This document shows positions 16,664 to 59,700 of a stretch of DNA of 64,000 nucleotides, in pieces. Source of the stretch: Antedon mediterranea (Eukaryota > Echinodermata > Crinoidea > Comatulida > Antedonidae); contig NC_092670.1 of assembly GCF_964355755.1 (NCBI RefSeq), positions 19,467,201 to 19,531,200 on the forward strand. Direction: 5' to 3'. The notes under the pieces are model-generated. The model was given only the letters and a program-made list of their open reading frames with translations. It had not been told where the DNA came from and searched no databases. The position numbers and the translations under genes are program-made. The first letter of the stretch is position 1. Each line of letters begins with the position of its first letter.

Positions 16664-30858
<14,195 letters not shown>

Positions 30859-33709: not shown

Positions 33710-35100
33710 TATGATGGCGCAAACAATCATCCCGTGGTGCAGCACTCACTGCTTCCGTGGACTCGAATCTGTTTTGGCGCCATCATCTGCGCAAGCTTGT
33801 GGTTTGAACGCAGCCTAATGATCTGGAGATTCCACCTGAAAATTACTTAGCACAACCTACAATTAGGTCAGAAGGCAAACATCTGACCAATTACTTAGGT
33901 CTCTGACGCAAAACTAGTTTACATTAATTACTACACCAATCATCGTTATCCTGATAACATTAAAACATGCAATGTCTGTCCTGATTTTAAGTTTATTGTA
34001 ACTGAATTATTAACCAAATTATTACTTTAAGTTGCGATGAATTATTCAAATAATAATGCAAATTCAATATCACCGAAAATTAATACCAGAAGTTCATTTA
34101 CTTTTCTTGTAGCAACAAATTGACTAATGTTTGATTTGATTCAAATATGCTTTTAATAACTAATACAACATTAGCCTCTGTTATCGGTCCTTTTTATCTC
34201 TCCCTCTCCACCCCACCCCCTCCCAACAAATGGACGAGACCCATAATATTTAGAAGCTACTAAATACATTTCTGCAGTAAATAAGTTTCGTTTCGTTTTT
34301 ATTTTCGTTTATTTCCCACTCTTCAAATGAATTTAAACAGTTTGAACATAAGCATACATTGTATATGGGTGGATGGAGGTCACAGTAAGTTATTGAACTT
34401 TAAGTTGTGGCCCCCGTATCAGTACAATAATAATATGAAATTTATGTTTAAAAATGAGGGTACATGAAATCAAGTAGGCCTACATATAAAATAAAATTGT
34501 AATTAATTAATTACGACAGTAAAAGTTAAGATGAACTGGACAGTTGTATGACGATATAATGATAAAACTAATAGGCCTAAGTCTCTACGGTAGGTTTATA
34601 ATATCCTCCTGGATAATAAGCAAAACTAAGTTAATTTTTAAATTTCTCGTTGTTTTTTTACTTGAAAAAATAGAAATAAATGTTTTTATTTTAAATGATG
34701 ACTATACAATATTATATATATATTTTTTTATTTTCTACGGATAAATTAGATAGTTTTTTTTTAGCTTATAATTTGCAAAATCACTGTTCGGAAGATTTTT
34801 TTTTTTTTCAAAAATCCAAAGTACACTAAACCACCTGACTAAACTATAATTTATAAACAAACGGAAAAATCAAACCAAAATGAATACAACGCACTTGACT
34901 ATCTCTTTGTTTTAATCGTTCACCACACCTGAAAAATTAATCTCTTTCAACAAAGCGGACTTCCTAACTAGCCCTCATACATTAAGTATATTCAATGGCA
35001 TGGTGTTGAATTAAAATTATTAAGACGAAATAGGTTATATGACTTCTTTTAAATGTATTGGCTGTCAGACAACGTTTACATTTTAATGTAGTTAAGATAT

Positions 35101-36119
35101 TCAGTCGCTCCGGTTGCACTTTACCTTACACAGTACAGCGGAACAGACAACGATTGCTGCTTTATCGTAAGTATTTTTTAAAAACATTAAAAATTACTTT
35201 TTATCAAAACTAAGTTGTAAAGTATCTTCTCGGTTTAAACAGATCTGTCATTTTAGAGCGTATATTAATACATTTTATTTTATTTCATTTATTTTAATTT
35301 TATTTCAATCACATCTAAGAGCCGTATTAGGTGTAAGGGGCTCTCTTTTCTTGACTTTGTTAAAGAATAATGTGCAAAATTCTCAACCCATGCGAATTGG
35401 TCTCCTTTCTCTTTTTTATATAACAAATACTAATAATAAATTTGTATATAATATTAAGCATATAATGAGTAAAGCTTTTTAATGCGCTTCACATTAAAAG
35501 TAACACATTTTCAATAAGATAAAATTAGATGGAAATGGAATTTAAAAGGGCACAAATGACATCCCTGGAAACTATTGATTATTGAGAATGTGAATGTTTG
35601 GTTATATTTTAATCTATAAATTAGTAGAGAAAGGGAGGCTAATGGATGACCAAATCCGTCTTTAGTTATGTTTCGAATGATCTTTCTAGGCCTATTTGGG
35701 CATAATGAATATGACTGTTGGTATTTATTTCTCTTCTCTTTCTCTTGTTTTCAATTATCCCAAAACAAAAACAATTATACAAATGAGATGCTGTATAATA
35801 TTCCTATGATACTGCTAATATTGTAGTATGTGAAGATACAATACTGCCAAATTAAAGTGTTTTTTAACCTAAGCCTATAAATTTATATTTGAAGAATAAA
35901 TAAAAATCGCGCTGTGGGAAAAAAATTGTAATAGATTTTAATTAAAATAACTCGATTATTTTAACAATATTATGTTAATCTCGACCTTCTGTCTTAAAAA
36001 CCGTCTTTCCTTAAGTCGGTAAAACTTTGAATTTAATCTTCTTTAATCTTACCTGCCTGCATTTTTGTATTATTCGTTTTAGTTTGCATTTCTCGTCACT
36101 AAACCACACTACACAGACG
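35101..36119 (+). other. putative spliced 5' leader of GPCR gene 2
   Basis: A donor follows TGCTTTATC at 35167-35168 (gtaagt). A 37-bp exon candidate lies at 36083-36119 between ATTCGTTTTAG and gtaagt. A third acceptor, ATATCGTAG, ends at 36561, 24 bases before the start codon. Together these suggest a multi-exon leader. Either early exon could also serve gene 3, whose own acceptor (ATTACCATAG) ends at 38099. Confidence 0.4.
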
Positions 36120-36585
36120 GTAAGTCTACTTGATTATTGTTTTTTGCCTTCGTTACTTGTTGTTTTATGCTAATTACTTCCTCATTTACATACAACCTAT
36201 CCTATTGGTATATACATACTCTATTCGTTGTTTTCTGTTCTGATGATGAGAATAGTTTCTCGAAACATCTCAAGACATTTTAAAGCAGTTTGCCTATTTA
36301 TCTAATGCCTCACAATCGTTATTTTAACTCGAAAGTTCGGTGGAATCATTCATAATTAATTACTTATATATTCCTTAATTGATATGTAGTATATTTTATT
36401 CAAGTAGTAGTAAATACTATTCAATTTATTTATGATTTATAATAACGTTTCTTGACAGTATGCCTAACGGCCGTATAAACACAAAATACTTTTTAACAAG
36501 TGTGTGGCTTTAGCTACCTACGTACCTGTAATACAATAAATATCTTTCTTAAATATCGTAGATTCAAATAAACCGATAAGCAGAT

Positions 36586-37602
36586 ATGAATTCTACGAAC
36601 ATGACATTCGATCCGTCAACATGCAAGATGCCAAGCATGGTAGAAACTCCTCTAGTCTACAACACAACCCTTCTTTCCTTTTACATTTTAACGCTGATCG
36701 TTCTTTGTACGTTGATAATTATCGGCAACAGCATCATAATGTGGTCGTTCATCAGGTTTAAGAAACTACGCGATAAAAAATACGTCCTAATCGGAAGTCT
36801 TTGTCTCACTGATTTCTTAACTGGAGTGATTCTACCGATCCAGATATTAGCTCCACCAAGTTTTATTGACGCTGTTAGTGTTTCTCTTTGTATAATATCG
36901 GTCTTCACCATCCTGGCGATCGCTGTTGAGAGGTTCTATATACTAGTTGTCATGAATGTGGATATGAGTCGTACTGCTGCTACAAGAAAACAGCTGTTTA
37001 TATTTTGCGTTGTAATGTGGGTGACGGTGTTTTTAGCTGTCGTGCCTTGGACTATGTATCCATACAAATACATCGTCCTTATTTACAGTTTTGCTCCGCT
37101 GAGTGTTATTGTGGTAATGATCGGAGTCTGCATTCTGTATACTTGTATTTTCTACACAATGAACAAATTAGACAAAGAGAAAGAAAGTAAACTTGGCAGT
37201 AGACGCATCAACCGAACAAAACTCGTCATCCAAGCTTACACCGTCATTGTCATTACATTTGCCGTCTGCTGGTTGCCATGGTGCATTGAAGCACTGAGAA
37301 TTGCGTCTAATACCTATTTAAGCAGTGATCCAAAAGATCGAGAGATTTGCTATACGGCTACAATTCCCGCCATTTTCTTCCTGAACATTGGACTTCTTAA
37401 TTCCGCCATTAACCCACTTATTTACTGGCTGAAGCTTCCTGATTTTCATGAAGCTATTAATAAGTTGCCGATATTCAAGTGTTGTACATGCAGTTTCTGT
37501 CAGAAAAGATCTCAACTCAACAGAAGCGATACCAACTCTTTCACCAGCGGCACTTACAGGCAGAACACTGTCGCTCTACAGATTAACGAAATAAAAAGTT
37601 AA
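36586..37602 (+). CDS. orphan rhodopsin-like (class A) GPCR 2
   Basis: Single coding exon, 338 residues. N-glycosylation sites at N2, N5 and N26. GN (47-48) in TM1, D76 in TM2, ERF (115-117) at the DRY position, W145 in TM4, CWLPW (228-232) in TM6 and NPLIY (276-280) in TM7. The cytoplasmic tail has clustered cysteines (KCCTCSFC) suited to palmitoylation and a Ser/Thr-rich end. It shares the whole architecture with gene 1 and is nearly identical to gene 3. Signalling partner and ligand cannot be inferred. The ERF variant and the lack of an obvious TM3 cysteine mark the subfamily. Confidence 0.92.
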   Translation: MNSTNMTFDPSTCKMPSMVETPLVYNTTLLSFYILTLIVLCTLIIIGNSIIMWSFIRFKKLRDKKYVLIGSLCLTDFLTGVILPIQILAPPSFIDAVSVSLCIISVFTILAIAVERFYILVVMNVDMSRTAATRKQLFIFCVVMWVTVFLAVVPWTMYPYKYIVLIYSFAPLSVIVVMIGVCILYTCIFYTMNKLDKEKESKLGSRRINRTKLVIQAYTVIVITFAVCWLPWCIEALRIASNTYLSSDPKDREICYTATIPAIFFLNIGLLNSAINPLIYWLKLPDFHEAINKLPIFKCCTCSFCQKRSQLNRSDTNSFTSGTYRQNTVALQINEIKS

Positions 37603-38114
37603 ATCAAACAATTATCAATCACTTCAACTAAAGCACTGTAATATCAAGAAGTTACTTTGTCAAAACTAACAATTAAAATTTTTTATTTAAAGTAATTAAC
37701 TTCAAGTTAACTAAGATAACAATAAGTAAAATGTTTATTTTTCGATCAATCAAAACTACTTCATTCTCTTGCTTCTTTCTTTCCTGAACATCCGTCAAGT
37801 TGTGTGAAAAGTACGTTGCATTTTCTAATTTGAATCTACGGTATAACTGGTACTTTATGCATAATGTCGTAATTGTTATTCCGGCCACCAAGTCTGTCCT
37901 TTTCCATCGATTCTGAAAAAGAGCTGATTTATAGTAACATAATCTTTTGGTTATGTTATGCCCCCATACCGGTACTGGTTTTCGTAAATCATTCTAGACT
38001 CGGCCAATTATTGCTTTTACTAATAGTGTATATTAAATAGGAGTAATCATACTAATTATGTAGGCATATTTATTGAATATCTTGTTTTAATTACCATAGA
38101 TCCTAGTAGCAGAT

Positions 38115-39134
38115 ATGAATTCTACGAACATCACAACATTCGATCCATCAACATGCAAGATGCCAAGCATCGTAGAAACTCCTCTAGTCTACAACACAAC
38201 CCTTCTTTCCTTTTACATCTTTACGCTGATCGTTCTTTGTACGTTGATCATTTTCGGCAACAGCATCATAATGTGGTCGTTCATCAGGTTTAAGAAACTA
38301 CGCGATAAAAAATACGTCCTAATTGGAAGTCTTTGTCTGACGGATTTCTTAACTGGAGTGATTCTACCGATCCAGATCTTAGCTCCACCAAGTTTTATTG
38401 ACGGTATTGGAGTTTCTCTTGCCATAATATCGGTCTTCACCATCTTGGCGATCGCTGTTGAGAGGTTCTATATACTAGTTGTCATGAATGTGGATATGAG
38501 TCGTACTGCTGCTACAAGAAAACAGCTGTTTATATTTTGCGTTGTAATGTGGGTGACGGTGTTTTTAGCTGTCGTGCCTTGGACTATGTATCCATACAAA
38601 TACATCGTCCTTATTTACAGTTTTGCTCCGCTGAGTGTTATTGTGGTAATGATCGGAGTCTGCATTCTGTATACTTGTATTTTCTACACAATGAACAAAA
38701 TAGACAAAGAGAAAGAAAATAGACTTGGTAGACGACGCATCAACCGAACAAAACTCGTCATCCAAGCTTACGCCGTTATCGTCGTCATGTTTGCCGTCTG
38801 CTGGTTGCCATGGTGCATCGAAGCACTGATAATTGCGTCTAAAACGTACCTAAGTAGGAATCCAAAAGATCGCGAAATTTGCTATACCGCTACAATTCCC
38901 GCCATTTTCTTCCTGAACATTGGACTTCTTAATTCCGCCATTAACCCACTTATTTACTGGCTGAAGCTTCCTGATTTTCACGAAGCTATTAATAGATTGC
39001 CGATATTTAAGTGTTGTGCGTGCGGTTTCTGTCAGAAAAAACCTGAACTAAACAGAAGCGATACCAACTCTTTCGCCAGCAGCAGTTTTATGAGTAAAAC
39101 TGTTGCTCTACAGATTAACGAAATCAAAAGCTAA
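38115..39134 (+). CDS. orphan rhodopsin-like (class A) GPCR 3
   Basis: Single coding exon, 339 residues, a tandem duplicate of gene 2 about 0.5 kb downstream and on the same strand. It has one extra Thr near the N-terminus. The same landmarks are present: GN in TM1, LTD in TM2, ERF, CWLPW and NPLIY. Differences from gene 2 concentrate in the N-terminus, the TM2-TM3 region, the third loop, TM6 and the tail. A 254-bp central stretch is identical at the DNA level (38446-38699 versus 36914-37167). The upstream context, ATAG followed by a short leader and GCAGATATGAATTCTACGAA, is shared with gene 2. Confidence 0.92.
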   Translation: MNSTNITTFDPSTCKMPSIVETPLVYNTTLLSFYIFTLIVLCTLIIFGNSIIMWSFIRFKKLRDKKYVLIGSLCLTDFLTGVILPIQILAPPSFIDGIGVSLAIISVFTILAIAVERFYILVVMNVDMSRTAATRKQLFIFCVVMWVTVFLAVVPWTMYPYKYIVLIYSFAPLSVIVVMIGVCILYTCIFYTMNKIDKEKENRLGRRRINRTKLVIQAYAVIVVMFAVCWLPWCIEALIIASKTYLSRNPKDREICYTATIPAIFFLNIGLLNSAINPLIYWLKLPDFHEAINRLPIFKCCACGFCQKKPELNRSDTNSFASSSFMSKTVALQINEIKS

Positions 39135-41607
39135 ACTGGTTTTCAATCAGTTTCACATTCCTTTTTTCCAAACTAACTTTTTTCAATAACTTCAATAATC
39201 AACCTTAACAAGTTTTTACCAATTACACCGTACGTACTAAAGCTTGGTTCTTCTCACTATGACGCACAACGCCCATCGCTTGCGATTGATGGAATTACTT
39301 GCGTTGTGCTTACGTCACCCTTGCGTGGCGCCACTGTGGGAAATAAACTTTAGGTCAAGCAAGTAATTACAAATTTCTCAATTATAAGATATCGATTTAG
39401 AGCATTGAATAGAACCAAAGTTCTATCATTAAATAATCTTAGAAGATAGGCGATATTTATCTATGAAATAATGAGTTTTTCTATGGAATAGTTGGTCTAA
39501 ATAGGTAGATACAATAGAATAAAATTATGCAAGCAGGATGGAGAAATATGACAAATAGAATATTATATGTTATAAATTAAGAAATAAGGAAGAAAAGAAT
39601 GAAATTATAAAAGAAAACGAAGATTACTATACGAAATAGAAGTTTGTTAATTAGACCCGAATGTTGGTTAAGTTATAAATTATTGCATTAATATGAAGAT
39701 AAAATTAATATTTTCACGATGAGGCACTGCTCAATCATAACATAAGGTACTTTCTTATGATAATTAACGGTTAGGAATATTGTTGTACGGAGGAAATATA
39801 TATTTCCGCCATGTGAAACCATAAAGGAATTTCATTTTCTTATTACATAAAAGTGAGAGAAACACTATATTATATTTTTGTACTTCATCATACCATTTAA
39901 AGATATTGTTCCCATGAAAAAACACATTTTTTAAAATGTTTTTGTTCAATATGTCTTTTAATGTCACATATAATTGACTGGAAGTCTGGGCTTTTGGTTT
40001 GGTATTTTGTCGTTTTACAAGCTAAAACGCAATTTTTTCCAAAGAAGTCATTAACTGCGAAATTCAAAGTATTGTTATTTTTATTAATCTTCATTTGTCA
40101 TGGGACAATACATCTTTAATTGGTAAAATATTTAACAATGCGGCACAGGCACGATTGCCTCCAATCAAAGACCAACTTTACGCATTCTCTCGCATTATAA
40201 TATAACCTAACCTGACAGTAACTAATAATGTGGTCTTCAATTGGAGGCATATCTGTATTATTTCAATATCATTTTTTATCTCATAAACTTAATAGTTAAG
40301 GAATATACTTAAATTAAGATTAAAATTACTAACTATATTACTCAGATAATGTCTGCTCAGAGGAGAAATATAACATTTGAGATCCTCTGAGGGAGTTATA
40401 TTTTTATAGATTAGAAGGATTATATTGTCCACTCAGAGAGAAAATATAATCTCAAATCTATATTACACTGATGTAAAAGGCAATATCTGTTATATTATAT
40501 AGCCAAAATTGATGCAAATAATTAGTTACAGCTATAGTAGTTACAATGTAAATACGGCAACTGCATAAGGGCTAATTATTCATTTCTGGTCACTCCATTG
40601 TACCAAATGTTTTGGTATACTTAACCTACACTCAAAATTTCAGTCAAATGTCATGTGTTTGTGACCAATAGTTATTTAAATACGATATAATACCCATGTC
40701 AATTTAATAAAGCCATTTATATTACCCAGTAGGGCAATATAACGTTTTTGATCAAGTAGTTAATTGATGGTATTTATAGGCTATTTAATACTGTATTTTC
40801 AATGTAATAAGATTTAATTGTAGATAAAGTAGTTTCAACTCATAAAAGATAAGTACTGGTATTTTTAGAAACCACTTTATGATATTACATTAACGGTTAG
40901 TAGTTTAAACTCGTTTGCTAAACAATTAGTAATAAAGAGACAATAAAAGACATAATAGACACTGGACAGTGCATTAGTCGTGATTGTTGTATAGGCAAAC
41001 AATTTATAACATCAGTTGATATTGAGTGGATGTTTTGTTTTCGATTGATGACAATAAAACCAGAACGTTTATTTCGTTTGTACACATTATTACGAATACT
41101 CTAAAACATTGAGAAAATTGCCTTTGTGTGTATAGGCACTGAGACTAAGCTGCTTTGAAACACAATGTAATTATAATGTACATACTTATTTTCATTAGGA
41201 CACAAAACGATAATCATTTCATCCAAAGGACAATAACAATTTGTTTTTATTTGTTTATAGTCATAATACTGACGATACTAATAAGTTAACACAAATAGAA
41301 CTCAATCGATAGACTTAAAGCTTGTTTTCCACCAGGAAAATTGCTCGCGTAAATTAAAAAGAGTTATTTAATATGCGCATGCGTATTGATGTTTTAATCT
41401 ACTTTTTGTGACGTGAAGAAATGCGCAGCCAATCATATTAACTCATGAATTTTCGATTCGCGCGAATATTCTCTAATGGAAAAGCGGCTTAAACACTACT
41501 TAGTAGCTGAATGGTTCGGTCGATTTTGTATTGCAAACATGTAATGAATTGGACAAGGTTAAAAGTATAGAGATAAAGTACAAGATAAAAACAACAAAAT
41601 ACTGTCT
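39135..41607. other. non-coding spacer downstream of the GPCR genes
   Basis: AT-rich. It holds a short inverted repeat at 40153-40251 and repeated AGAGGAGAAATATAA/AGAGAGAAAATATAAT words near 40359-40455. No supported gene. Confidence 0.45.
40153..40251. repeat. 99-bp inverted repeat (hairpin)
   Basis: ATTGCCTCCAATCAAAGACCA at the left pairs imperfectly with TGGTCTTCAATTGGAGGCAT at the right across a loop of about 50 bases. Confidence 0.6.
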
Positions 41608-41773
41608 AAAGGTCTGTCTACACTATCAAACTTTATTTGACAAAAAAATGCAATGTGCCTATACATAGACATGATGATGTCATATCACTACCATATTTGG
41701 GAATATCGCTACCATTATTTGGGCACATCACACTTATTTTGTCAAACTAGTTTGATAGTGTAGACAGAGCTTT
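41608..41773. mobile_element. GCTCTGTCTACACTATC MITE, copy 9
   Basis: Complete copy that ends 17 bp before the target-site duplication of the large transposon. Confidence 0.82.
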
Positions 41774-41790
41774 ATAATAATCAAACATAC

Positions 41791-41798
41791 ATATGACT
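41791..41798. repeat. left target-site duplication of the large transposon
   Basis: ATATGACT, repeated in direct orientation at 54509-54516, directly outside the terminal inverted repeats. Confidence 0.85.
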
Positions 41799-41839
41799 AC
41801 GAAAGCCTATTAGGGCCAACAAAAAAATAATATTGCTTT

Positions 41840-42300
41840 CACAAATTCGAAATAACGAATTATTAATTCGTTTTTTCGAATTATTAATTCGTTATTTCGA
41901 ATTTATTTAAGTAATTTGAAATTTCGAATTAATAATTCGAAATTTCGAATTATTAATTCGAAATTTCGAATTATTTATTTCGTTATTTCAAATTATTAAT
42001 TCGAAATTTCGAATTATTAATTCGAAATTTCGAATTATTAATTCGAAATTTCGAATTAGTAATTCGTTATTTCGAATTCATAATTCGAAATTTCGAATTA
42101 GTAATTCGTTATTTCGAATTAATAATTCGAAATTTCGAATTAGTAATTCGTTAAATTTCGAATTAATAATTCGAAATTTCGAATTAGTAATTCGTTATTT
42201 CGAATTAATAATTCGAAATTTCAAATTAGTAATTCGAAATTTCAAATTAGTAATTCGTTAATTCAAATTTTTAATTCGTTATTTCGAATTAATAATTCGA
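41840..42300. repeat. palindromic AATTCGAAATTTCG array, left arm
   Basis: More than a dozen units built from TTCGAAATTTCGAA, TTATTAAT/TTAATAA and CGTTATTTCG words. Almost every unit is self-complementary, so the array can fold on itself. It corresponds to 53944-54466 in the right arm. Confidence 0.9.
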
Positions 42301-42365
42301 CCTCTGCCCTTTCTAATGACATCCCAACCATCCCGGATGACTTTAGCTAATGCAATCTGGTCATC

Positions 42366-43028
42366 ATGCGTCCTGAAAACCATTGGATTAGATTATATTT
42401 CAATCGTAGCTTAAATTATCAAGAGATTATTGAAATGTTAGCAGAAGATCATGATATTTTGATAAGTAAACGGACATTAAAGCGAAGGCTGAAAAAAATG
42501 TGCCTTAGTCGAAGAAAATGGCATTCTGACGAACTGGAAGCCAATTACAGACGTCAAGGATGCTACATGGGTACAGGTGGATGCACATTCGTTGCACACA
42601 AAATGGGTTAAACATAGATAAAGAGACGGTCAGAATAATTTTAAACCTTCTTGACCCAGAGGGTGTCGAAGCAAGAAGGAGACGACGACTACACAGAAGA
42701 ATTTATCATGTACCTGGCCCAAACTATATCTGGAATATCGAGTCGTACGGCAAACTTAAGCCATACGGCATTTGTATAAATGACGGATTCTCTAGACACA
42801 TAATATGGCTAGTCCCAAAGTTATAGCCTGCTATTACGTAAATTTTGTTCGCCAAAAAATATGGGTTGTCCCGGGGGTTGTCCAAAGTCTATTAGAACAG
42901 ATTTCGGAACTGAAAATTCTATTGTTGGTCCAATGCAACAATTTCTTTGTAATGAGAACAGCAGTTTTATACAAGGAACAAGTCAGCATAATCAACGAAT
43001 TGAGAGTTGTTGGGGCATTCTCAGAAAA
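42366..43028 (+). pseudogene. decayed 5' copy of the transposon's transposase
   Basis: It starts with the same MRPENHWIRLYFNRSLNYQE opening as the intact gene at 53880. Relative to that copy it has a 19-bp deletion after 42540, a deletion of about 9 bp near 42783, a deletion of about 27 bp near 42812 and an insertion of about 14 bp near 42868. The frame is broken several times, and similarity ends at 43028 before the last third of the gene. It cannot make a full transposase. It is part of the left TIR. Confidence 0.9.
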
Positions 43029-45060
43029 TTATTATTAATATCGTATTTAACTAAAGTGTCCGCCAGAGTAAGATTAAGGGCGTCTTTACATACATTTGTT
43101 TTTAAATTTATATGGATCAATTTTAAATATAGTGTAATATAATTGGAGACGTTTTAGACTGATGAGCCCGGTATTGAGACTTTACTCGCTTGGTTGCAAT
43201 TGAGTTCGTATATTACGATACGATACGATAAATACTACTACAGGGTATCAGTCGATCGGTGATGATAGATGATGATGTTGTGAATGAGGTGTGTCAGCTC
43301 TGTAGGTGTGCCTATGATGAAGTGGCTCAGTGAGGTGTCTCTGGGCTCTGTTGAGACTGGGGGTATATCGGCTTCTGTTCATTGCATATGTCATCATTAT
43401 ATCGTCTTTGAGCTTAGATATAAAATTGGTCCTAGTTGATCCACGATCTAGGTACAGGCAAGACAAAGTAGTTTTTGTATATCTCAATGATGGATATCGT
43501 TGTCAATTCTCTACTTAAAAACTGTCATTCTTGAATTGTTTTACGATGGGAAAGTTCTCTAAGGTTAGATAAACTGTTACTTTAGAGAGCTAATTGGTTA
43601 CAAGTAGTATTCATGAAAAACATCTGGTCAGTTTCTTACTGGACTTTTGTGGGGCAAATTTTTGAACTCAGTTGGTGTGTGGTAACGTTAAATATTGGAA
43701 TTGTATATAACTCTGATACATTACAATAGCAACAAGTCGTTGCAGCTTAGCCGTTGATTTCATCGATCATAACGAGTTTATGGGATTACGATATTCTGTC
43801 AATGAAAATAATATGATACATTTAATATTTAAAATACTGCCATGGACTGACAGATTATGTCTTGCACCAGTTATTTAAAAATATTATAGAGGAATGCAAC
43901 TATAGCTCTATAACATGTTGATAACACAATATACGCATATGGCAATATTATCGCATAATAATTGTATTTTAAAAAAGGTGATATTTTGGCCATTTTCAAA
44001 AAAATTCCTGTAGGCCTACTATAGAACACGGATTCTTTTTTCAAACAAATGGTATACAAAACGTACAATACTCAGGGGCGGATTCAATTTACGTCCGAGA
44101 CGCTAAATGACAAATGTTGTTGGAAATTGAAATCTTATAGCCGGGAAATTTTACCTTCCTCTTTTTTGTTTGCTTCTCAGTTGAAATGAACATGTCATAT
44201 TGAGAAACATTACCTCTGCTCCCTCTCCCCTTCTATTTTAAATTCTTTGACCCGCCCCCTCATGGACTTGCCAAATGGCAGATGACAAGGTAGTAGACCC
44301 GCCCTTGATACTGTATTGATATTCGAATCAATATGACAATATTTTCTTAACTTTCAACTTTATTGTCAAACATAAGAGTGTAAACATTCTAAATTAATGA
44401 CAAGGGATGATAGATTAGCCAACAATGAATATAAAGAGGGGTGGGGGTGTCAACCTTAATGTGAGTTTGTGAAATTTTGATTCGCCGACCGTTTCAATTT
44501 CAATTTCAATTTCAATTTGTTTTATTGAAAAAAGAAGGGGGAACGACAGCATCCCCCCCCCCCCCCGCCACCCAACCCACCGGATACGCCCCTAGATGAT
44601 AAAGTACGGTATAGTTTAAACAAACAAAAACTAATCACAGACCATCTAAGTAAAAACAAAACAGTTTAAATCAAGAATTGTACAATAGTTGAAAATTGAA
44701 GATTTAGTATAGTAAAACGAACAATATACGTACTGATGTTATTTTATTATTATATAATTACAAATCGCATCTATTTCATTACAAGAAGTGATCAACTCAT
44801 AAGTTTAGAGTGATTCCATGAGTGTCATTTTTTGGAATGTAAACATAGGCATATGATGGATTAGAGCATGTGGAAAATGAAGACAAGGAAATAAGGGACA
44901 TGATATAAACCACGAGGAATGTAAATATGGAATGGAAGGGAAACCATGAATCATGCCCAAAAAAGTGCCGGGTTGATAAAAACCAATTCACTGTCTTATT
45001 TGATTGATGTTAGGTTTACATCATTTTCCGACAATTTGATTGGTTAAGCAATTACTTATT
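43029..45060. other. non-coding interior of the large transposon
   Basis: No supported gene. It includes a degenerate CAGGGGCGGAT-ended element (44073-44594) that contains a TTTCAA repeat and a C-homopolymer. The frame at 43248-43487 shows no recognisable domain. Confidence 0.45.
44073..44594. mobile_element. possible nested hAT-like non-autonomous element
   Basis: The left end CAGGGGCGGATTC and the right end GGATACGCCCCTAG are imperfect inverses, of the type seen at 339-513. The interior has a (TTTCAA)n stretch and no reading frame. No target-site duplication is evident. Confidence 0.35.
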
Positions 45061-45065
45061 AAAAC

Positions 45066-45073
45066 TATAAATA
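45066..45073 (+). promoter_or_regulatory. putative TATA box of the HECT gene
   Basis: TATAAATA is followed by a stretch that ends at a strong donor, TTTCA before gtaagtac (exon end 45179). This fits a non-coding first exon of roughly 80 bases spliced to an acceptor upstream of the start codon at 46604. The pairing is inferred. Confidence 0.4.
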
Positions 45074-45973
45074 CGTAAGATTAATTTCCATCACCATTGC
45101 TGCTTCATACAAACTTACAAAATAAATAGTTTGTTTTATCCTACGGTTCCAGTGAAATTCCAGCATATTTTATATTTCAGTAAGTACGTTTTATCTTTTG
45201 TTTTTGTTGAACTCAACTCAATCATCGAAAATGAATTAACATATTATTTTAGTTGAATGTTTAAAGTTTTAGGCTTCGCTGTAGGACTATGGCAAATAGT
45301 CAGCAATTAATAACTGTATGACCAGTTTTAACATTAACTTTAATAGAAAGAATATATGTATACATATTTATCCTTCAAAATAAATATTACTTTGATTAAT
45401 TTTACGTATTTAAATGAATTAGTCTTAATAATTTCATTCGATAATATCAATTCCAATACTATAATATTATTCGTAATTTAGCACAACTCAACGTCAACCA
45501 TGTGCGTGCATACCGATATTAAGTTAGGCCTATATTTCTTTTATCATAATAAAACTTAGTTAGTTAGTTATAGTATCGAAACCTTATGTAAGTTATGTCC
45601 CATTTCAATGAAGGATATTAAATGAGTGCAAATGGGGCACATATCAATTGTATTCCGTAAATAAGCGACACGCGCGTTGTGCATCCCGAAACGCGACCTT
45701 GTTTAAAATCACTGTTTTTAAACGGTTTTTTAAATTATCTCCACTAATAATTGTCGGATTATAAATAACTAGGCATGAAAGCTTCATATTATTTCATACA
45801 TCGCATCACGTAAATGTGTGTTATCTCGTCGGAAATCAAGTTTTTATTTGACAGATTTGCTACATTTGACAGTGTCATTTCATAACTGTTAGAAGTATAA
45901 GTAATTGGGAAACAATACATATAAAACAAAACGTGAATTTAATTGCAAAAACAATCAAGTGTTATGGTAAATT

Positions 45974-46220
45974 CAGGGTGTCTCGAAAACAGAGACCCCC
46001 CACTAAAACTTCTTGATATTACGTTATATAGGGGGGTATCTGTTTTAGAGATTTTCTCGATTGTTTTCGAAATTTTCTGGAAAACAGATACCCCTTAAAT
46101 AATGTAATATCGAGAAGTTTTTTTTTTTGGTGGGGGTGGGGGGTCTCTGTTTTTAAAATCTCCAAAACAGAGACCCGGGTTTCTGATCTTTGTTTTCGAG
46201 GTCTCTGTTTTGAGCACCCA
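45974..46220. mobile_element. nested MITE with CAGGGTGTCTC ends
   Basis: The left end GGGTGTCTCGAAAACAGAGA and the right end TCTCTGTTTTGAGCACCCA are imperfect inverses, and TAAATT flanks both sides. Internal inverted ACTTCT(T/C)GATATTAC words extend the hairpin. It lies in the leader intron of the HECT gene. Confidence 0.6.
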
Positions 46221-46603
46221 GTAAATTTCAATAGCGAAGGCACATCCCTGTGTATTCCGTTTTTTGACTGGAGAGTACACACATTACGGCTAGCTATTAA
46301 CATTAACACTTAATCATACCTTAATTTAATCTGAATAAGTTTTTAAAAAATAGAATACATTAATGTTATATTACTAACCAATAACTGTACTTTTATACTA
46401 GGCTAAAGTCGCTATAGCTATACACTTGAATTACCCCATGATAATATAGTGGGGAAGCCTCCAACTTTTACGCAAAAAAGTAGCCATTCGCTTACCAAAG
46501 TCTGTTTGTGCAATCATTAGGGCTTAATTCGGTTGGCGGTACAAGAAGCTCTACTGGGGAATAAAACCATAGGCCCTACATTAAATTCACGAAAGATACG
46601 GCG

Positions 46604-49600
46604 ATGGATAAGTTATATGAATACATGGAGGAACGAGGAATTGAAGAGGAGTACATACAGAGAATGAGGGATGAAAAGGTAAAAAAAAACAATGTCTATG
46701 ATGCTTAAATCATGGGAATACTAAATATTATACTGTAATTATATTTGTCATTAAATATTGTATCCTCTATAAGATTAATATAGGCCTATAGTCCTATTCT
46801 GCATCTTTGTTGTATGAGGTTGAAACGTTCACACGACGCCCAGTTGCGAATCCAGGGAGAGGGGGAATGTTTAGGGTTTTTGTGAACCCCCTAATAAGCG
46901 GCGTAAAAAGGGGGTTTGTACTGTGAAATCTGTAATTTTCCCAAATATTGAAGTTTTTCACCCAATAAAAGGCAAACGTACATCAAATTCAAATTTTGTT
47001 TCCATAAACTGTTTCCCTTATAGTTGTAGTGTTTATCTAATCAATATTAAAATTGATATAATATGTACATATACATGATTTATCCTAATCTGTTAAGAAA
47101 ATTCATAATTTAACGTAGCACATACGGGTCGCTTGCATGCCACGATGTTTTACACAGTACGCACACATTTTAAAAGGTTTAATGTTTAGATCAATCATTG
47201 GTATGCCTAATCAAATATATTGAAACGTTCACTCGACCCCTTAATGTGACTATGTAATGCATGATGTTAATCAACTTTTGTTTTTGCAGATTGATTCAGT
47301 AGTTATAGTAGCCATGACTGACGAAGACCTTTCGAAATTTATTCCTCTCCTTGGGGACAGAATTGCTGTACGCGAATTTTGCAAAGACAAAAGACGCAAA
47401 GGTAAAAGTAAAAAAGAAACAGTTCTACAAAAACTCAAACAAAAATTGAACAAGAGAAGGGACGATGAAGAGGACGTGGAAGAGGACGGAAATCTTTGGG
47501 ATACGCGCTCAAGCACGCTGTTAGGGAACAAAAATGCCCAAAAAACAAATCGGAAAATCGATATAGGGTGGTTGGACTACGACGCTGAATCAAAATGCTT
47601 CAAACAAGTTCGCAAACAAAAAGGAGGAGGAACAAGACAGCTAATAGTGCCAAAGTCCACAAATTATAATGAACTGTTAGAAATTGCCACTAACTTGTTT
47701 TTTAAGGATGGACTGTCATTTAAAGGAAAGCTAAGCGAATTCAACTGCAAGCTATGTGATTTTCGACAACATCCCTTGAAAAAAGACATGAGCGTTGGGG
47801 AGCTGTATGCTGAATGCAAAATGGCAGTTCTAAGGTTCTACCTTCAAACCACTCCAGTTGGCAGAAAAGATGAAGCCGTAAAACGAAAGAGAAGTGGCGA
47901 GTCATCTGATGACGACGACGGGGATAATGATGTACCGTTGGTAGAAATAGACCATCCAACACGCCCACTTGTACAGCCCGACACACCAACCGTATCGTTT
48001 AAGGTAGGTAATATTTAAAATTGTAATTGGAACCCATAAGTTATACATTGTATAATTGTGGTACAACTCAATGATATACTAGTGTGATTCATTTTTGTTA
48101 ATTAACAGAAGACCGAGTCCATCTTTTCTGGTAGTAAATAACCTTGTTCAGAAAGGTGAAATAACTCATCGTGCACTTATAATACAATATTCATAAAGTA
48201 AACTCCAGCATTATAATGAATTGCTCCATTTACAGGTACCTGATAGACCTACTGACTCAATGATGAATTTAGCCTCGACAAGTCAATCGCATATGCCTTC
48301 AACATCCAGTCAATCGAAAAATGAGTGAGTTAAACTTATTATTCGAAATATGCCACAATGCTGTGTAAGGTGTGATTGACGAACAACGATTAAAATTTTC
48401 CGAACATTACCCGTGATCGTTTGTATGAGAAGTATTCTGTTATGCATATAAACTTTCTTTTAAGGATTTTTAATTTTAATTTTATTTTTGTTTACAGGTC
48501 GGCATATACATCATATGTGAATTTATGTTCAGACTCTGACGATACAGACGATGAAGAAGACTTACAACTACAACAAGCTATTAAAAATAGTTTAGTGGAA
48601 TCCCAGGAAACAAGGTTTGTGTACCAAATGTTTCAGGAGACGCTTAAACAGGCCTGTAGCCAAGGGGGTTCATGGTTCGGTTTTGTGTCCAAACAACCCC
48701 CCCCCCCCCACACCTTCCACCACCCCACCCCCTGTTAAACCCTAAATTGGCTGAATGTTGTAGTCATTATACTACACCTACGTACGAGACTCGACTGATT
48801 AATTTGTGAATGATGGTAACTTGTCTGGTAACAAAACCCTACCCCCACCAAATGGTTTTAACAGTTCAAATAAGACATTAATGATTTATCGTCAACACTA
48901 ACGGTTGATAATATCATTTTAGGTGCGAAGATCAAGTAGATATAACAATTAAGGACATCCTCGCCAATTACCAGAGACATCATCAAGTTGATGAATATCA
49001 GAAGGTTATTTGCCACAGAAAACGGTTTTTACGTTCGATCCTATACGCGTACGGGCAAGATGGTTTTAACTGCCGAAAAAAGGTACAATGCGAATTTGTT
49101 GGAGAAGAAGCTATGGATACCGGAGGACCTACAAGAGAAATGTTCAGGTTTGGACCTTTATTGGACACATTACTGATATCTATGTGCATGCTCAACTAAA
49201 CATTGTCTTATATTGTTAGTACTTGGTGATTATTCTTGCAATGTACTATAGTGCTATTTGTATAATTTTTTTTATAAAACTCCCTATAATTAACACTATA
49301 TACAGTGGCGTAACAGGCGGGGGCGGGTTCCAGATACGGCGGGTTCTAGATACCCCCTGACGGATGTTGAACCGTGCGAAACAAGCCTTCGCACTTGGCT
49401 GGGGTACTGGCCAGAATGCAATTGTAGACAAAAAATCTAGTTAATGACAAAGGCGTATCCCTCATACTTTTTGGTTTGGACGTTGTTGGTTACTTTTTGT
49501 ATTTTTTTGTATCTTTGGTTTCGTATGCCCAGTGTATACGCACGTATGTATGTATGTGTGTATTTTATTGTTACAGTAACATTTTGAGCAATATTTATTT

Positions 49601-51853
49601 TAAACAATGTATACTGGTTGCGCTTTTCTGATAATTCTTATTGTGCACTTTGATTTATATAGACTACTAATGAAAGCAGTTTGCGAACAGTTGGGAGTGC
49701 TGGAAGGAGAAGTGGGGAAACAAAATTTTACCCATAACATAGAGCTATTAGAGCAACGCAAATATGCTATGGCTGGTAGTTTCGTTGCATGGAGTCTATT
49801 GCATGGAGGTCCGGGCTTACCAACTTTGCAACCAGAGCTTTTCAAGCTAATGTGTGGGTTAAAGTCAAATGGATTTTCGGACGTTAATAGTGTGTGTGAC
49901 ATAGATGTCCGAGGCAAGATAGCAAAGGCAAGTGATTTTCGTTTACCATTCTAACAACAAGGCATCAAATAACTTATGGGAATATGTGTTATGTTAAAAT
50001 ATTCTATACGTTACCTAACGGACTTTTTATTTATAACATTTTTAAATGGGACAAGAAATGTTATTAATTTAACTTTTACTATTAAAATAGCAAAAGTTAA
50101 ATTAATACAATTTTTTTTTTACATTTTTTTAAACATAAATTTTGTTATTTACGGTCTGATTATTTTTTAAAACACGTAGGCCTACAGTAACCACAATCAA
50201 CTTATTTAACCCAAACCTAATAGGCCTATAATGCACGCGGCAAAACGTGTAGACCTACATTGTCTTTTATCACACGTGTAGGCCTAATAGGCTTACGATG
50301 AATTTGTATTACATTTTTGTATATTTGTAAAGAATTTGATTACAGTATCTTTTTATCCAGATTGCAAATTGCCAAACGACGGATGAGTACCGTACTATTT
50401 CACATGAATTATCGGATTGGGCGGCAGATCAAGGAGTCATGACGTTGTATAACTCGGATTTCAATCAAAAACAACAAGTCGTGTCAAGTCTGTTAAAGCA
50501 TTTTTTGTTTTACAGGTAACGTAACAGGCCTAATAATGATAATATATTTTAAGCACATGGTTATTCAGTGTTAGACGCGGGTAAACTAGATATAGATATG
50601 TATGTATGTAAACAATTAGTTACTAGCCCTTTTTAATCCAAGAAATAGTACGGTATCATTATGCATATTTCCTTAAGGAAAATCACAAGGGGTTAAGTCT
50701 AGTTCAGGACAGGAGAAACATTTTGGCATTAGGATTTAAAAGCATCGTGAAGGAAAATCCATCGAAATCCATCCAAATGAAATTCTCCTTTGGTTTTTAT
50801 TTGTCGGTTGACGGCTGCTCTGGGTGATTCTTCTGTAAAATTGCTGAACTTTAAATCAAGGCTTGGAATTATTGTACAGTTCGTATGAATGTGAACACAT
50901 TTTATTTGCTAATTGTGATTATAATTTACATGGTGCATTCATTTTCTCCTAATCTAGAACACATAGTGAAATCCGACAGTTCACTGAAGGATTGGGAGTA
51001 CTTTGGGAAAACGTAAGAGATTACCCAAACCAATTTGTCCCACTTTTCACTCTGGAGGGGAAAAGACTGACACGGCAAGTACTAAAGACACTAATGACAG
51101 TTGAATATTCAGAGGCAGGCTCCAATTTACGAAGTCAAGAGGAGGACACAGTGTATTGTCTGGAGGTTTTCTTACAAGAGTCGGAAGGTATTGTATACAG
51201 TATTTATATCTTTATTTTAATGTAAACTAAAGTAAACTCTAGATGGGGCGTTACATGCAGGGGGGAGGGGAGGGGTGTTGAGATACCCCCCCCCCCCCCA
51301 ATCCTTCGGGCTGAGAATGAATATCCAAAGTAAAATTAGGTACCCCCAGGGCTCGAAACGAAACGATACAATACCGTATTTCCTTACAGTTATATAATAT
51401 AGCCCTTCGAGAGAGAAACAAGGTTGTGTGTATTCACGAACAAACTTTACCTTGAAGAACTATACCGCTATACCCTATTTGTAATTCCTTGTACCAAAAC
51501 GAAAGTATGCTAATAAGAGCGGTGAAAGGGTAAATGGTAGACGAAAAAAGTATACATTTTTTATTTCATAATGTTTAACATTTTTATTTTTATGCATTTT
51601 AGATAAAAAGACCAAGACATCCCTTGGAGACTTCCTAACATTTGTTACTGGTGCTGACTCAATTCCCCCTCTTGGTTTTAGCAACCAGATACATATAAAT
51701 TTTTTTAGTAAGGAGCGAAAGATGAGAGGTTACCCGACAGCCAGTACATGTGGGTTGGATTTACACCTCCCCCGTGGATATGACGATCCATTGGAATTCA
51801 CAACTCTAATGGAGGAAGCCATCATAAATGGCAAGGGTTTTGGAAAACTTTAA
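46604..51853 (+). CDS. HECT-type E3 ubiquitin ligase (G2E3-like, SAM-like/UIM/HECT) inside the transposon
   Basis: Nine coding exons: 46604-46678, 47290-48003, 48236-48324, 48498-48614, 48923-49147, 49663-49927, 50361-50515, 50958-51187, 51603-51853, in all 2121 nt (706 aa), phases consistent. Residues 1-60 (LYEYMEERGIEEEYIQ...MTDEDLSKFIPLLGDR) look like a SAM-type helical domain. Residues 312-327 (EEDLQLQQAIKNSLVE) fit a ubiquitin-interacting motif. From about 365 the sequence is a HECT domain: FVGEEAMDTGGPTREMF at its start and YPTASTCGLDLHLPRGY near the end, with the presumed catalytic Cys at about 673, 33 residues from the C-terminus. HECT ligases take ubiquitin onto this Cys and pass it to substrates. 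The intron after exon 6 has a GC donor (AAGgcaagt). The stop codon lies in the end of a MITE. The reading frame is intact. Confidence 0.9.
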
Positions 51854-52206
51854 AGATGTATTGTCCCCCAAAATCATGAAGAATAAAGATTTTTTAAATC
51901 TGACTTTGAATAGGCCATTTTGCAGTTTTAATGAAGTTGTTTCCATAAGAAAAAAAAACGAGAAAAAAAAATTATTTCACCTATAGAAAGACAAAACAGT
52001 TAAACAGTTAAATTACCCCAAAACTCATTGTCTTCCAGCCAATTTGACCATTTATTTGCTTTAAATTACAGTTTTCTTAGGTAAATAATTTTTTTTCAGA
52101 CCCATTTTTTTGTGAAAGTGAAAAACTATTATGTGACATTAAAATAACATATTCAACAAAACAATTAAAAAAAAATATTTTTTCAGGGGGACAATATATC
52201 TTTAAA
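51849..52206. mobile_element. nested MITE with TTTAAAGATGTATTGTCCCCC ends
   Basis: The left end TTTAAAGATGTATTGTCCCC and the right end GGGGACAATATATCTTTAAA are near-perfect inverses. It lies between the convergent HECT and transposase genes and overlaps the HECT stop codon (TAA, 51851-51853). A related partial copy is at 14215-14500. Confidence 0.8.
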
Positions 52207-52251
52207 TTATGATCAAATTTTAGTAGCCAACAGTTTTGTAATTGTTTCAGA

Positions 52252-52283
52252 AATAAAATACTGTTATCAAAGTTTCAATAAAC
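52252..52283 (+). terminator. poly(A) signals of the HECT gene
   Basis: Two AATAAA hexamers (52252-52257 and 52278-52283) lie 0.4 kb beyond the HECT stop codon and before the 3' end of the convergent transposase gene. Confidence 0.5.
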
Positions 52284-52525
52284 AAAATGTTGTTGTTAAA
52301 TTACATCTGTTTTACTGTATTGTACAGCTACATAACACAATTCTGTCTGATCATCACCAACTGAACATAATACTATAAATATAATTGTTTATATTGTATT
52401 CATTACATTGTGTTCGTTGCAATTCTAACTTTGTATTGGAAATAATATCACAGCGACAATTAATTAATAAAAAAACCGATTTATAACATGATAATGTGAT
52501 ATCACGTGCTTGCTGTGGCATTTGA

Positions 52526-53880
52526 TCAGATGACGTCAAGAAACATATTTCTAAGACTGCTGTATAACTGCAAACCTTCATCACATGTTTTCGGCATCGA
52601 TAGCTGCCTTTCTTCCAAGAATATGGAACATAAGTCGAACACCTCCTTATCGCATGGAATCTGGCTTTTGAAGATGGATTCACTTTCACAAACTTCAACT
52701 TTAGCCACATCAACGGGAATAATACACTCTTGTCCCCCGAATAAGTATGGTACATTGTACATCAATGTCGGGCGTCCAAACGGACCATGGCTATTTCTCG
52801 ATTTTGAGATGCGATGGGCATTCCACTCGTTTGCAACCGTGTCCAGTTCATCCTTTAAAAAAGGCAAATATATTGTAAAAACAAATAGTTTAATGACAGT
52901 TTAGACCGTGAAAAAAAAAACAATATCGTAAATAAAAGAGGAGTGATTTAATTCTAGGCTAATATTGTTTGCTTTTCAAATTGTTGCGAAAGCCCAAATT
53001 ATTATTATAATTGTCGTACTTGGGGACTATAATGCATAGCACACAATGTAATTGCTGTACTGCTTACCTGGATAATTTTCATAAAACAAAATTGTAATAA
53101 AGATTTGTCTATAAGACCTCCATCATATCTACCGTCATTCTTTTGTTGTTTAAAGGCGTCCATCCAAAACTGAGTAAAGTGTTTTCTGAGAATGCCCCAC
53201 CAACTCTCAATTCGTTGATTATGCTGACTTGTTCCTTGTATAAAACTGCTGTTCTCATTACAAAGAAATTGCTGCATTGGACCAACAATAGAATTTTCAG
53301 TTCCGAAATCTGTTCTAATAGACTTTGGACAACCCATTTTTTGGCGAACAGAATTTACGTAATAGCCGGCTATAACTTTTGGATTGCTGCTAGTAAAGTA
53401 AGCTTCTAGCCATATTATGTGTCTAGAGAATCCGTCTATACAGCCATTTATACAAATGCCGTATGGCTTAAGTTTGTCGTACGAGTCGATATGCCAGATA
53501 TAGTTTGGGCCAGGTACATGATAAATTCTTCTGTGTAGTCGTCGTCTTCTTCTTGCTTCGACACCCTCTGGGTCAAGAAGGTTTAAAATTATTCTGACCG
53601 TCTCTTTATCTATGTTTAACCCATTTTGTGTGCAACGAATGTGCATCCACCTGTACCCATGTAGCATCCCTGACGTCTGTAATTGACTTTCAATGAACGC
53701 AGCGACTTCCAGTTCGTCAGAATGCCGTTTTCTTCGACTAAGGCACATTTTTTTCAGCCTTCGCTTTAATGTTCGTTTACTTATCAAAATATCATGATCT
53801 TCTGCTAACATTTCAATAATCTCTTGATAATTTAAGCTACGATTGAAATATAATCTAATCCAATGGTTTTCAGGACGCAT
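52526..53880 (-). CDS. integrase-like DDE transposase of the large transposon
   Basis: Two exons, 53068-53880 and 52526-52852, joined in phase 0 at CAG-gtaagc and TTTTTAAAG-GATGAA, give 379 residues. Residues 1-50 are helix-rich and basic (SKRTLKRRLKKMCLSRRKR), suited to DNA binding. The core resembles retroviral-integrase/IS3-type catalytic domains: HID with D132, IRTDFGTEN with D191, and NQRIESWW with E225 (33 residues between the last two). The C-terminal exon contains HGPFGRPTLMYNVP, and the protein ends after the motif FLDVI. The frame is open throughout, unlike the left-arm copy. It should cut and join the TIR ends. It is convergent with the HECT gene. Its first two-thirds lie inside the right TIR. 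Confidence 0.88.
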
Positions 53881-54508
53881 GGTGACCAGATTGCATTAGC
53901 TAAAGTAATCCGGGATGGTTGGGATGTCATTAGAAAGGGCAGAGGTCGAATTATTAATTCGAAATTTCGAATTATTAATTCGAAATAACGAATTAAAAAT
54001 TTGAATTAACGAATTACTAATTTGAAATTTCGAATTATTAATTCGAAATAACGAATTACTAATTCGAAATTTCGAATTATTAATTCGAAATAACGAATTA
54101 CTAATTCGAAATTTCGAATTATTAATTCGAAATAACGAATTACTAATTCGAAATTTCGAATTATTAATTCGAAATAACGAATTACTAATTCGAAATTTCG
54201 AATTACTAATTCGAAATTTCGAATTATGAATTCGAAATAACGAATTACTAATTCGAAATTTCGAATTAATAATTCGAAATTTCGAATTAATAATTCGAAA
54301 TTTCGAATTAATAATTTGAAATAACGAAATAAATAATTCGAAATTTCGAATTAATAATTCGAAATTTCGAATTATTAATTCGAAATTTCAAATTACTTAA
54401 ATAAATTCGAAATAACGAATTAATAATTCGAAAAAACGAATTAATAATTCGTTATTTCGAATTTGTGAAAGCAATATTATTTTTTTGTTGGCCCTAATAG
54501 GCTTTCGT
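53182..54508. repeat. right terminal inverted repeat
   Basis: Inverted counterpart of 41799-43028. It contains the intact start and catalytic residues of the transposase and the palindromic array at 53944-54466. It is about 100 bp longer than the left arm because the left arm has net deletions. Confidence 0.88.
53944..54466. repeat. palindromic AATTCGAAATTTCG array, right arm
   Basis: Same kind of self-complementary units as 41840-42300, running from next to the transposase leader to within about 40 bp of the terminus. Confidence 0.9.
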
Positions 54509-54516
54509 ATATGACT
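54509..54516. repeat. right target-site duplication of the large transposon
   Basis: ATATGACT, identical to 41791-41798. Confidence 0.85.
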
Positions 54517-56701: not shown

Positions 56702-59700
56702 TCATTTCTTATTCGCAATCATTCGTTTATTATCAGGCTAAAAAACAAAATGATATTTTTCAAGATGGTGGAATGGTCAAGTAGTTACTGGACAAATGAA
56801 TTATTAATAAACAAAACTCTATACTTACTGGTAAAATAGAAAATGAACATGTTAAGTCATCCGTGACACAGAGAACAGCACCAGCATTGTCAAATTCCCC
56901 GCAATAATTGGGGGCACTGAATATCGTCACTAACTTACGCTTCTGGAAGAATTCATAACCATCTTCAACAACCTGGAAAAGAAACATGATAATTATAACA
57001 GGCTGAGGAACTCTTCCAATTTTGAACATCTTCAGCTGGGCTATTATTTCGGGTATTCTGTAAAGTCTGGTATATTCTGAATGTGTAATGGTAAATGAGA
57101 ATTTGGGGCTTTTTTGGACCTCAAGAAAAGTCAGACTTTCAGAGAGTCTGATTTTTGGAAAATTGACTACTACAAAATGTATTGAGAAAAGAATTAGAGA
57201 AGAAAGCTGTCGTGTCATGTTTGTATTTAAACAGTTATTTGAAACCATTGCACAGGTTTCTAAAACTTTAGTGCACAACATATTTGACAGCTGTGCTTTA
57301 TAGTATGATAGATTAAGTTAATAAGCCAGTACTGTATTAGACAAACCTGATGTGCTCTGACTATTAGACTTAAGTCATTATCTTTCAAAAAGTGACGAAC
57401 CACATCTCCGCCAAATGTGTATGACACGCCTCGATCATTCTCGCCAAAACCAGTGATATCCTAAAGAAAATAAAAAGAATTTAAATTATTCTGGAATCAA
57501 ACATAATTCAGAATAGTTTTTGTTTTGTTGAAGCACTGTGAGATCATTTTGGTATTAATTAATAATTCAGATTATACTGTAATTATAACTTGATATATTT
57601 AAATCAATCAGGTTTTTGTCCATCATAGTATCGAACAATCACAGCACTTGTCAATATTATTATTGGTAGTGATGTTGATGAGGGAAGTATGGTCAGACTA
57701 TGTATGCTTAACTTCATTTGATATGGTGAACCATCAAATAAAATAAAGTAAATAGAGATTATACGGACTCAGTAAATATACAATATTCAGTGGTTTAAAA
57801 ATAAAAGCTGTCTTTAATGAAAGATCCCAAATCATAAATGTTAATAATATTTCGTCAAAACATACAGTCATTGATAAGGATCAATTGCTGGCACTCTGTT
57901 AAAAGTTAAAATGTTAAAAGTTAATTAAATTTTAAATAAATAAAGAATTTGATCTGATTGATGTCATAAAGCATAAAAAAAAAACCATTAAATAATTTAT
58001 TAATGTAATCATATAAAAACACAACTAACAGACTGCGGTTGTAAATTTCAAGTGATTTACTGTACTTGTAAGATGTTTAGAGATATGTACACAGTCATTT
58101 TAGTTGCTGTTATTGTTCAACTAATAGTAATAGCAGAATCAAAATCAAGTAAGTGATTATTATTATTTCATTTGTACTATTATTAATAAGAATAAACAAA
58201 TGAAAATTGTACTCTAGGATAATAATAATAATAATATATACGAATTTGTAAAGTGCCAATTCCAGCAACAAGTGATCAAAGGCGCTGTGGACTTAGATGT
58301 TACACCTTCAAGAACAACATTCTTCTCCCTTAAGGGTCACATCGTGTCATTGGCAGCCAACTACGTCGCCATTACGTCTGTCCACGACAGTGTGTGTGTA
58401 TGAACATAGTACTACGGGGTAACCCCCTACTCGTCTCGAAAGATGTACTAGGTTCTTTAAAGTGCATATGAGCCAGATGTACACTGGGCCTACGGTTTAT
58501 AGTCCTTATCCGAGAAGACTTGTTCTACCACCAGAACCATGGAGCGAGTGAGCCTCGAACCCTTGCCGATGCCTAGTTTTATTGGAATTTGTATATATTT
58601 CAGGATACAACATGCATTTGATCATCTTACTGGAATTGCCACTATTTAAATGTTGGATTATTATTATTATTCTACTGGGCTTATACGACGCATGCACACA
58701 TAAATCTTTTGTATAAATTACCGCTCCAATTTTGTTTACTGTCCTGATGCAAAAGCTCACTATAAATGAGTAAGTACATTGGACCGACAGCCTGTTTTTT
58801 AAAATGTTGGCATAAATATTTCAAACTTAGAATCATTTTCATTTAACTGGATAATTACTTAATGCCTTCTTCTCTTTCAGCATGTAAACAAAATTGTGAA
58901 GAAAAATTTTCTTGTGCAAATTTATGTACAATGTACTGTGCATGCAGATCACCGAGGTCGGTGGTTGCCGGCGGACATGACAGCAAGTCGTTGACGTTGA
59001 AAAATGGTACACAAATATGTTGTTCAGATATAAATGAAATGGTATATAGGTGTAAAAGAACAGGTAGAAGAAGAAGAGGAGAAGGAGGAGGAGAAGCAGA
59101 AGAAGAAGCAGGAGGAAGAGTAGGAGCATGTAAGAAAAAAAAATAACATTACTGTCCCATGAGAGACTTGAGTACAATTCCTATATAACTTTGCTCCAGG
59201 ATTTTAAAATAGCCTAGTGGGGGGTTTTGGCAGATACAAGTAGTTGAGTAAATGGCACTAGTAAATTGGTTATTATCATGTGCACCATTAGCCTTAATTT
59301 TGACAATGTTGACAATAAAATGCGTAAAACCTGATGATATACTACTACTGTATTTATTGCTGTTTTCTAAAAAAAAGTGCCTTTCAAACATTATCCTTAA
59401 ATCGTGATTGATTACTTTATATTGACAGTAGGAAGGGTTTTGAATTAAATCAAGGCTAACAATAACTGTACAGATTATGGATGGTACCATTTGCTAAACA
59501 TTCAAGGAAGCCAATTGGCGAATTGAAAATCAGTCAAGCCAAGACTAATCGTGTCGCAACTAGGTGTAAAACTTGTAATCTGGTGAAGCTTAACATCCCA
59601 TTGTTTGATTGCCATGGTTTTATCAGAACATGGTTCAATATATAGCCTTCGGTGATCTAGGTACTTCTTGATATATAGTATAGGCATCACAATATTTGTA

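Follow-up and report, generated by a model that had tools for sequence, protein, structure and literature searches.

The window, the 64,000-nucleotide stretch of DNA that was analysed (C1:19467201-19531200 of an Antedon mediterranea genome searched over 354 Mb in 11 large contigs), contains a 12,712-bp transposon at positions 41798-54509, with ends TACGAAAG...CTTTCGTA and boundaries set by comparison of copies. Between its terminal inverted repeats (TIRs) lie two complete genes in tail-to-tail (convergent) orientation: a plus-strand gene of nine exons, modeled as a HECT E3 ligase of 706 amino acids, and a two-exon transposase gene on the minus strand, encoding 379 amino acids. The features of the element are listed below by window position, strand, and identity.

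41792..41797, no strand: left target-site duplication (TSD) TATGAC, identical to 54510-54515; length from copy comparison
41798..54509, no strand: whole IS3EU-type transposon, ends TACGAAAG...CTTTCGTA
41798..43028, plus: left arm of the long TIR, 89% identical to 54509-53182
41844..42300, no strand: left-arm array in which a 21-bp palindrome (AATTCGAAATTTCGAATTATT) is repeated about 21 times
42366..43028, plus: degenerate second transposase exon 1, frameshifted, with HID of the first catalytic region changed to NIE
46604..46678, plus: HECT exon 1, with ATG (gene model)
47290..48003, plus: HECT exon 2, N-terminal region (gene model)
48236..48324, plus: HECT exon 3 (gene model)
48498..48614, plus: HECT exon 4, with UIM-like stretch DEEDLQLQQAIKNSL noted by eye (gene model)
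48923..49147, plus: HECT exon 5 (gene model)
49663..49927, plus: HECT exon 6, GC donor (gene model)
50361..50515, plus: HECT exon 7 (gene model)
50958..51187, plus: HECT exon 8 (gene model)
51603..51853, plus: HECT exon 9, with C-lobe, catalytic Cys (PTASTC), and stop (gene model)
52526..52852, minus: transposase exon 2, stop included (gene model)
53068..53880, minus: transposase exon 1, with HTH-like N terminus and rva_4 integrase core (gene model, Pfam)
53182..54509, minus: right arm of the long TIR, 89% identical to the left arm
53946..54463, no strand: right-arm array with about 24 repeats of the same 21-bp palindrome
54510..54515, no strand: right target-site duplication TATGAC, identical to 41792-41797

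Both genes had been called intact, at these same lengths, in an earlier sequence-only reading of this DNA, and splice-consistent gene models bear this out; all introns of the HECT gene are GT-AG except one GC-AG. The best Pfam match of the transposase was rva_4 (3.3e-35), with rve at merely 0.17, and the catalytic D, D, and E positions are retained across the window family (A) and the related families A2 and E, the first D also in family F; a search of the PDB by sequence returned no relative of the transposase. The HECT domain (Pfam HECT, 4.3e-13) occupies residues 429 to 704, the C-terminal part of the 706-residue protein, and the catalytic Cys lies in a PTASTC motif that aligned with PTAHTC of AREL1 by PDB similarity; the UIM-like stretch, recognized by eye, is positioned ahead of this domain. 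Structure prediction without an alignment gave no usable model (pLDDT 35 and 38). The protein is a predicted HECT E3 ubiquitin ligase, for which ubiquitin transfer activity is predicted from sequence. The right arm of the element leads into the intact transposase gene; the left arm holds a second, broken transposase copy without exon 2, which had gone unmentioned in the sequence-only reading.

The 19-bp end ACGAAAGCCTATTAGGGCC occurs once at 41799 and once at 54490-54508 in exactly inverted form, in agreement with the exact inverted ends described earlier, and the long TIRs of the same description correspond to the two arms, each approximately 1.2 to 1.3 kb (41798-43028 against 54509-53182, 89% identical). 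Across the genome, the end motif gave 49 matches at two or fewer mismatches, against 0 for a reversed control. Since ATATGACT is found flanking both 19-bp ends of the window element, an 8-bp direct duplication had been proposed, but copy comparison revises this: in every copy compared, a T precedes the left 19-bp end and an A follows the right end, so the TIR starts TACGAAAG, leaving a 6-bp duplication (TATGAC); the two extra bases are one TIR base and one chance base. Among copies with both ends read, eight, including that in the window, have exact and differing 6-bp duplications (CATTTT, ATACTT, CCTTTA, GGAAAC, GAAAAT, GTTTCT, and GACCGC in the others), and one further copy matches at five of six bases; the copy on contig C11, with a damaged right end, showed no matching duplication. 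An 8-bp TSD type (hAT, Merlin, MuDR, or P) was rejected, because 8 bp is only apparent in the window copy and the other copies fit 6 bp. The left flank of the insertion (window 41604-41780) is itself a palindromic repeat, some 170 bp in length, with about 40 genome copies among the matches listed, and a search of this assembly for an empty site, with both flanks joined, returned only the two halves of the locus itself and copies of this short left-flank repeat.

The revised duplication length alters the superfamily call. IS3EU/GingerRoot transposons are recognized by termini of the TA..TA type and by TSDs that usually measure 6 bp (PMC10045372). TA..TA termini were found in family A (TACGAAAG..CTTTCGTA) and in families E and F (TACGGTGGC), the TSDs are the eight exact and one near-exact 6-bp duplications given above, and the transposase has the IS3-like DDE domain (rva_4, 3.3e-35). 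These ends, the TSD, and the rva_4 (IS3-like integrase) domain of the transposase together place the window element in the IS3EU/GingerRoot superfamily. Ginger-type transposons have a TSD of 4 bp and a Gypsy-like HHCC integrase. Ginger1 and Ginger2 were rejected on the basis of the 6-bp TSD and the Pfam ranking, with rva_4 as the best match and rve at only 0.17. With the IS3EU/GingerRoot elements of Repbase (PMC10045372), the window element shares TA..TA ends, 6-bp TSDs, and a DDE transposase of the IS3/IS481-like integrase group; it differs from them in having a HECT ligase as a recurrent second gene and also in its long arms, its 21-bp palindrome arrays, and its second transposase exon 1. 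A full-text search for HECT together with IS3EU found no paper in the literature covered; an annotation that is unpublished, or present only in a database such as Repbase, is possible.

Other copies of the sequence give good support to the suggestion, made from the window alone, that the ligase travels within the mobile unit. The sequence-only reading proposed a search of related genomes for independent insertions carrying both genes, and in this genome such an insertion is found at C1:5572635-5585349, a collinear 12.7-kb copy with HECT inside matching ends, different flanks, and its own TSD (CATTTT); since flanks and TSD both differ, the HECT gene has moved as part of the unit, whose insertions number at least two and differ in their 6-bp duplications. 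Over most of its length this copy differs from that of the window by less than 1%: substitutions amount to 0.2% in HECT exons and 0.6% in HECT introns, and reach 1.6% at most in the arms and spacer. A copy at C8:19.94 Mb has the same layout, interrupted at HECT exon 5 by a nested insertion of 3.9 kb; a 22-kb copy at C3:19226669-19248705 (TSD GACCGC) has HECT exons inside, and a copy at C9:15.66 Mb is without HECT exons 5 and 6 and without one end. Among the four long copies read, both genes are intact only in that of the window, and all copy counts are lower bounds for the one genome covered. Three comparisons between young copies yielded 3 synonymous and 8 nonsynonymous changes in HECT, numbers too small to reveal selection. 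The insertion at C8:19.94 Mb (L077:5692-9602) has 1.5-kb inverted arms and is another long-arm transposon, nested in HECT exon 5.

These copies also bear on the suggestion that HECT was a gene already resident in the host, which became enclosed by TIRs or by two separate insertions. The presence of transposase exon 1 sequence in both arms does resemble a pair of inverted elements; the TIR motif, though, is present in the window at the two outer ends only, so that neither arm is a unit by itself. The same 12.7-kb unit also stands at C1:5.57 Mb, where flanks and TSD differ, and HECT recurs in other families. We give this explanation next to no weight. A composite transposon of the bacterial style was likewise rejected, given that the motif lies at the outer ends only and that the left transposase copy is broken and without exon 2.

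A shorter form of the element has spread as well. Four elements of 5.6 to 5.9 kb (L069, L070, L071, and L072) share one rearrangement at separate insertion sites, placing this derivative at four sites or more; it is HECT-less in that it retains HECT exon 9 only, together with one complete transposase gene, both of its arms are copies of the transposase end, and its 1.26-kb middle is absent from the window element. Since this derivative also moved, the ligase is not needed in cis. Its spread, and the loss or breakage of HECT in many copies, would fit a passenger host gene that was caught once and has hitchhiked without any role for the transposon. We consider such a passenger quite improbable, because the pairing of the two genes spans transposases with only 30 to 49% identity in the same convergent order, and because long open frames (452 and 685 amino acids) and retained catalytic residues would be hard to explain without selection.

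The pairing was assessed by grouping matches genome-wide, those to rva_4 into 55 clusters and those to HECT into 49. Of the 55 rva_4 clusters, 24 have a HECT no more than 15 kb away, where 0.26 would be expected and the maximum in 2000 shuffles was 3. With a family-B HECT as query (L080, its open reading frame read over 419 amino acids, with 24% identity to the window HECT by alignment), HECT genes or remnants were found to adjoin all ten family-B transposases, and HECT was also found beside the transposases at C2:4.39, C1:32.77, and C7:11.63. HECT genes or remnants thus adjoin rva_4 transposases with only 30 to 75% identity to that of the window, and 34 of 37 transposase-HECT pairs are convergent across about ten lineages, assigned by transposase identity rather than by a tree. 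In the divergent families, which were located by coordinates and read in part, HECT frames of 452 and 685 amino acids remain open, and facing TIRs enclose both genes in family F (ends TACGGTGGCCTATAAGTG; C2:4389848-4396512 and C7:11619081-11639958) and family E (ends TACGGTGGCTGATTTCCGCC; C10:11652102-11668453), the TIR sequence of these three elements differing from that of the window element. The catalytic Cys is retained in the HECT proteins of families A and B and apparently F, in which the C-terminal tail with the Cys apparently occupies the last bases of L035. A codon pattern for LLHGGP gave 19 matches against 4 for the control, 8 of the 19 in or beside rva_4 loci, which is suggestive. 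Approximately one-third of rva_4 clusters had no HECT found nearby; some of these are fragments, and others may truly lack HECT. Viral contigs were searched for relatives, and none was found.

Because the pairing recurs in divergent families, the ligase is a long-standing second gene and not a lone capture, and it appears from these sequences to be an old standard component of the transposons in this genome. The recurrence of HECT genes next to divergent rva_4 transposases also supports the earlier claim that the ligase belongs to the mobile unit. An alternative would be that different IS3EU families captured HECT independently and repeatedly, in line with the high divergence of the transposon HECT proteins (21 to 24% identity between window and family B by alignment) and with regions N-terminal to the HECT domain that by eye seem unlike each other, resembling a UIM in A and a CUE in B. 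Against this, the convergent order is constant, and transposase and HECT diverge together in a graded way: identities to the window proteins in five families are 75/49, 49/33, 41/30, 39/32, and 32/21% (transposase/HECT; Spearman 0.9, n = 5, a rough value since the HECT figures come from different segments). Nor would repeated capture lead one to expect the similarity in exon 2, outside the HECT domain, of 30 to 49% in families A2, E, F, and G, and we judge it improbable. Divergent families also keep 21-bp palindromic arrays at their ends (L018:1-396 and L026:3325-3670) with an entirely different unit sequence; the 21-bp period seems to be conserved across IS3EU families. The family-E copy at C10:11.66 Mb is interrupted (L027:3210-3816) by a sequence that by eye resembles a non-LTR-retrotransposon endonuclease (LNETRLDN...GYDIYRNDR).

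Taken together, the window element is probably an autonomous cut-and-paste DNA transposon of the IS3EU/GingerRoot superfamily, whose standard gene set in this genome consists of a DDE transposase and a HECT ligase arranged tail to tail. In the mechanism we propose, the transposase would bind the 21-bp palindrome arrays of the long arms, which are plausibly its binding sites, cut at the TA..TA ends, and insert with a 6-bp stagger. The ligase might then, with less certainty, act in trans by ubiquitinating a protein that keeps transposition in check, such as a host silencing or repair factor; action in trans is proposed because the derivative that lacks HECT but has a complete transposase gene spread as well. 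The main alternative target would be the level of the transposase itself. In one such scheme, HECT is a self-limiter that ubiquitinates its own transposase and keeps transposition low, as repressors do in other elements. The two genes are kept together in convergent orientation, where overlapping antisense transcription could tune both, and HECT divergence tracks transposase divergence as it would for an enzyme and its substrate, although mere linkage predicts the same codivergence. Selection for self-restraint of a transposon in trans is weak in outcrossing genomes, which we count against this scheme, and we regard it as unlikely, if far from negligible.

A host factor that restrains transposition, the target we favor with less certainty, is suggested by analogy with related systems. 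Fungal IS3EU elements have TAYGG..CCRTA ends and carry TET/JBP and alpha-kinase genes, the latter oriented opposite to the transposase, and their TET/JBP is thought to serve in evading methylation (PMC12730594). An accessory gene is thus common to these elements and to that of the window, which carries a HECT E3 ligase instead. The sequence-only reading had held that cut-and-paste transposons usually carry only a transposase; as a general background this is too simple, given the TET/JBP and alpha-kinase genes of fungal IS3EU (PMC12730594). Ginger1 transposons carry OTU or Ulp1 domains, for which a role of the ubiquitin/SUMO pathway in transposition has been proposed (PMC2836005); both they and the window element are integrase-like DNA transposons tied to this pathway, but the ubiquitin- or SUMO-removing enzymes of Ginger1 are fused to the transposase, whereas the ubiquitin-adding ligase of the window element is a separate gene. 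The composite-like KolobokP transposons (PMC9587614) likewise combine unusual long terminal repeats with an extra enzyme beside the transposase, with direct repeats and a homing endonuclease in place of the inverted arms and HECT ligase found here.

A transposon with its own ubiquitin ligase, paired with the transposase over deep divergence, makes a role of ubiquitin in transposition testable. More broadly, HECT might be an ancestral, selected second component of an entire lineage of IS3EU transposons in animals that degrades or modifies, in trans, host factors restraining transposition, and multi-copy orphan HECT genes of animals may derive from it; we put this forward tentatively, as a real possibility short of probable. 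A caution also follows for genome annotation, in that HECT genes annotated in multiple copies in animals may belong to transposons.

Elsewhere in the window, two near-identical elements of approximately 840 to 860 bp (1200-2060 and 29220-30050), with inverted ends (GTTATGCGCGATTTGAACG...) and TTGCGCAATTT palindrome arrays, resemble small nonautonomous transposons with the same style of array as the main element. A minus-strand frame at 56760-57317 resembles by eye an exon of a PP1-type protein phosphatase; the frame as cut gave no Pfam match. Just upstream of the transposon, at 31964-39134 on the plus strand, lie three tandem rhodopsin-type GPCR genes, each a single open frame, with Pfam 7tm_1 confirmed for the first and third.
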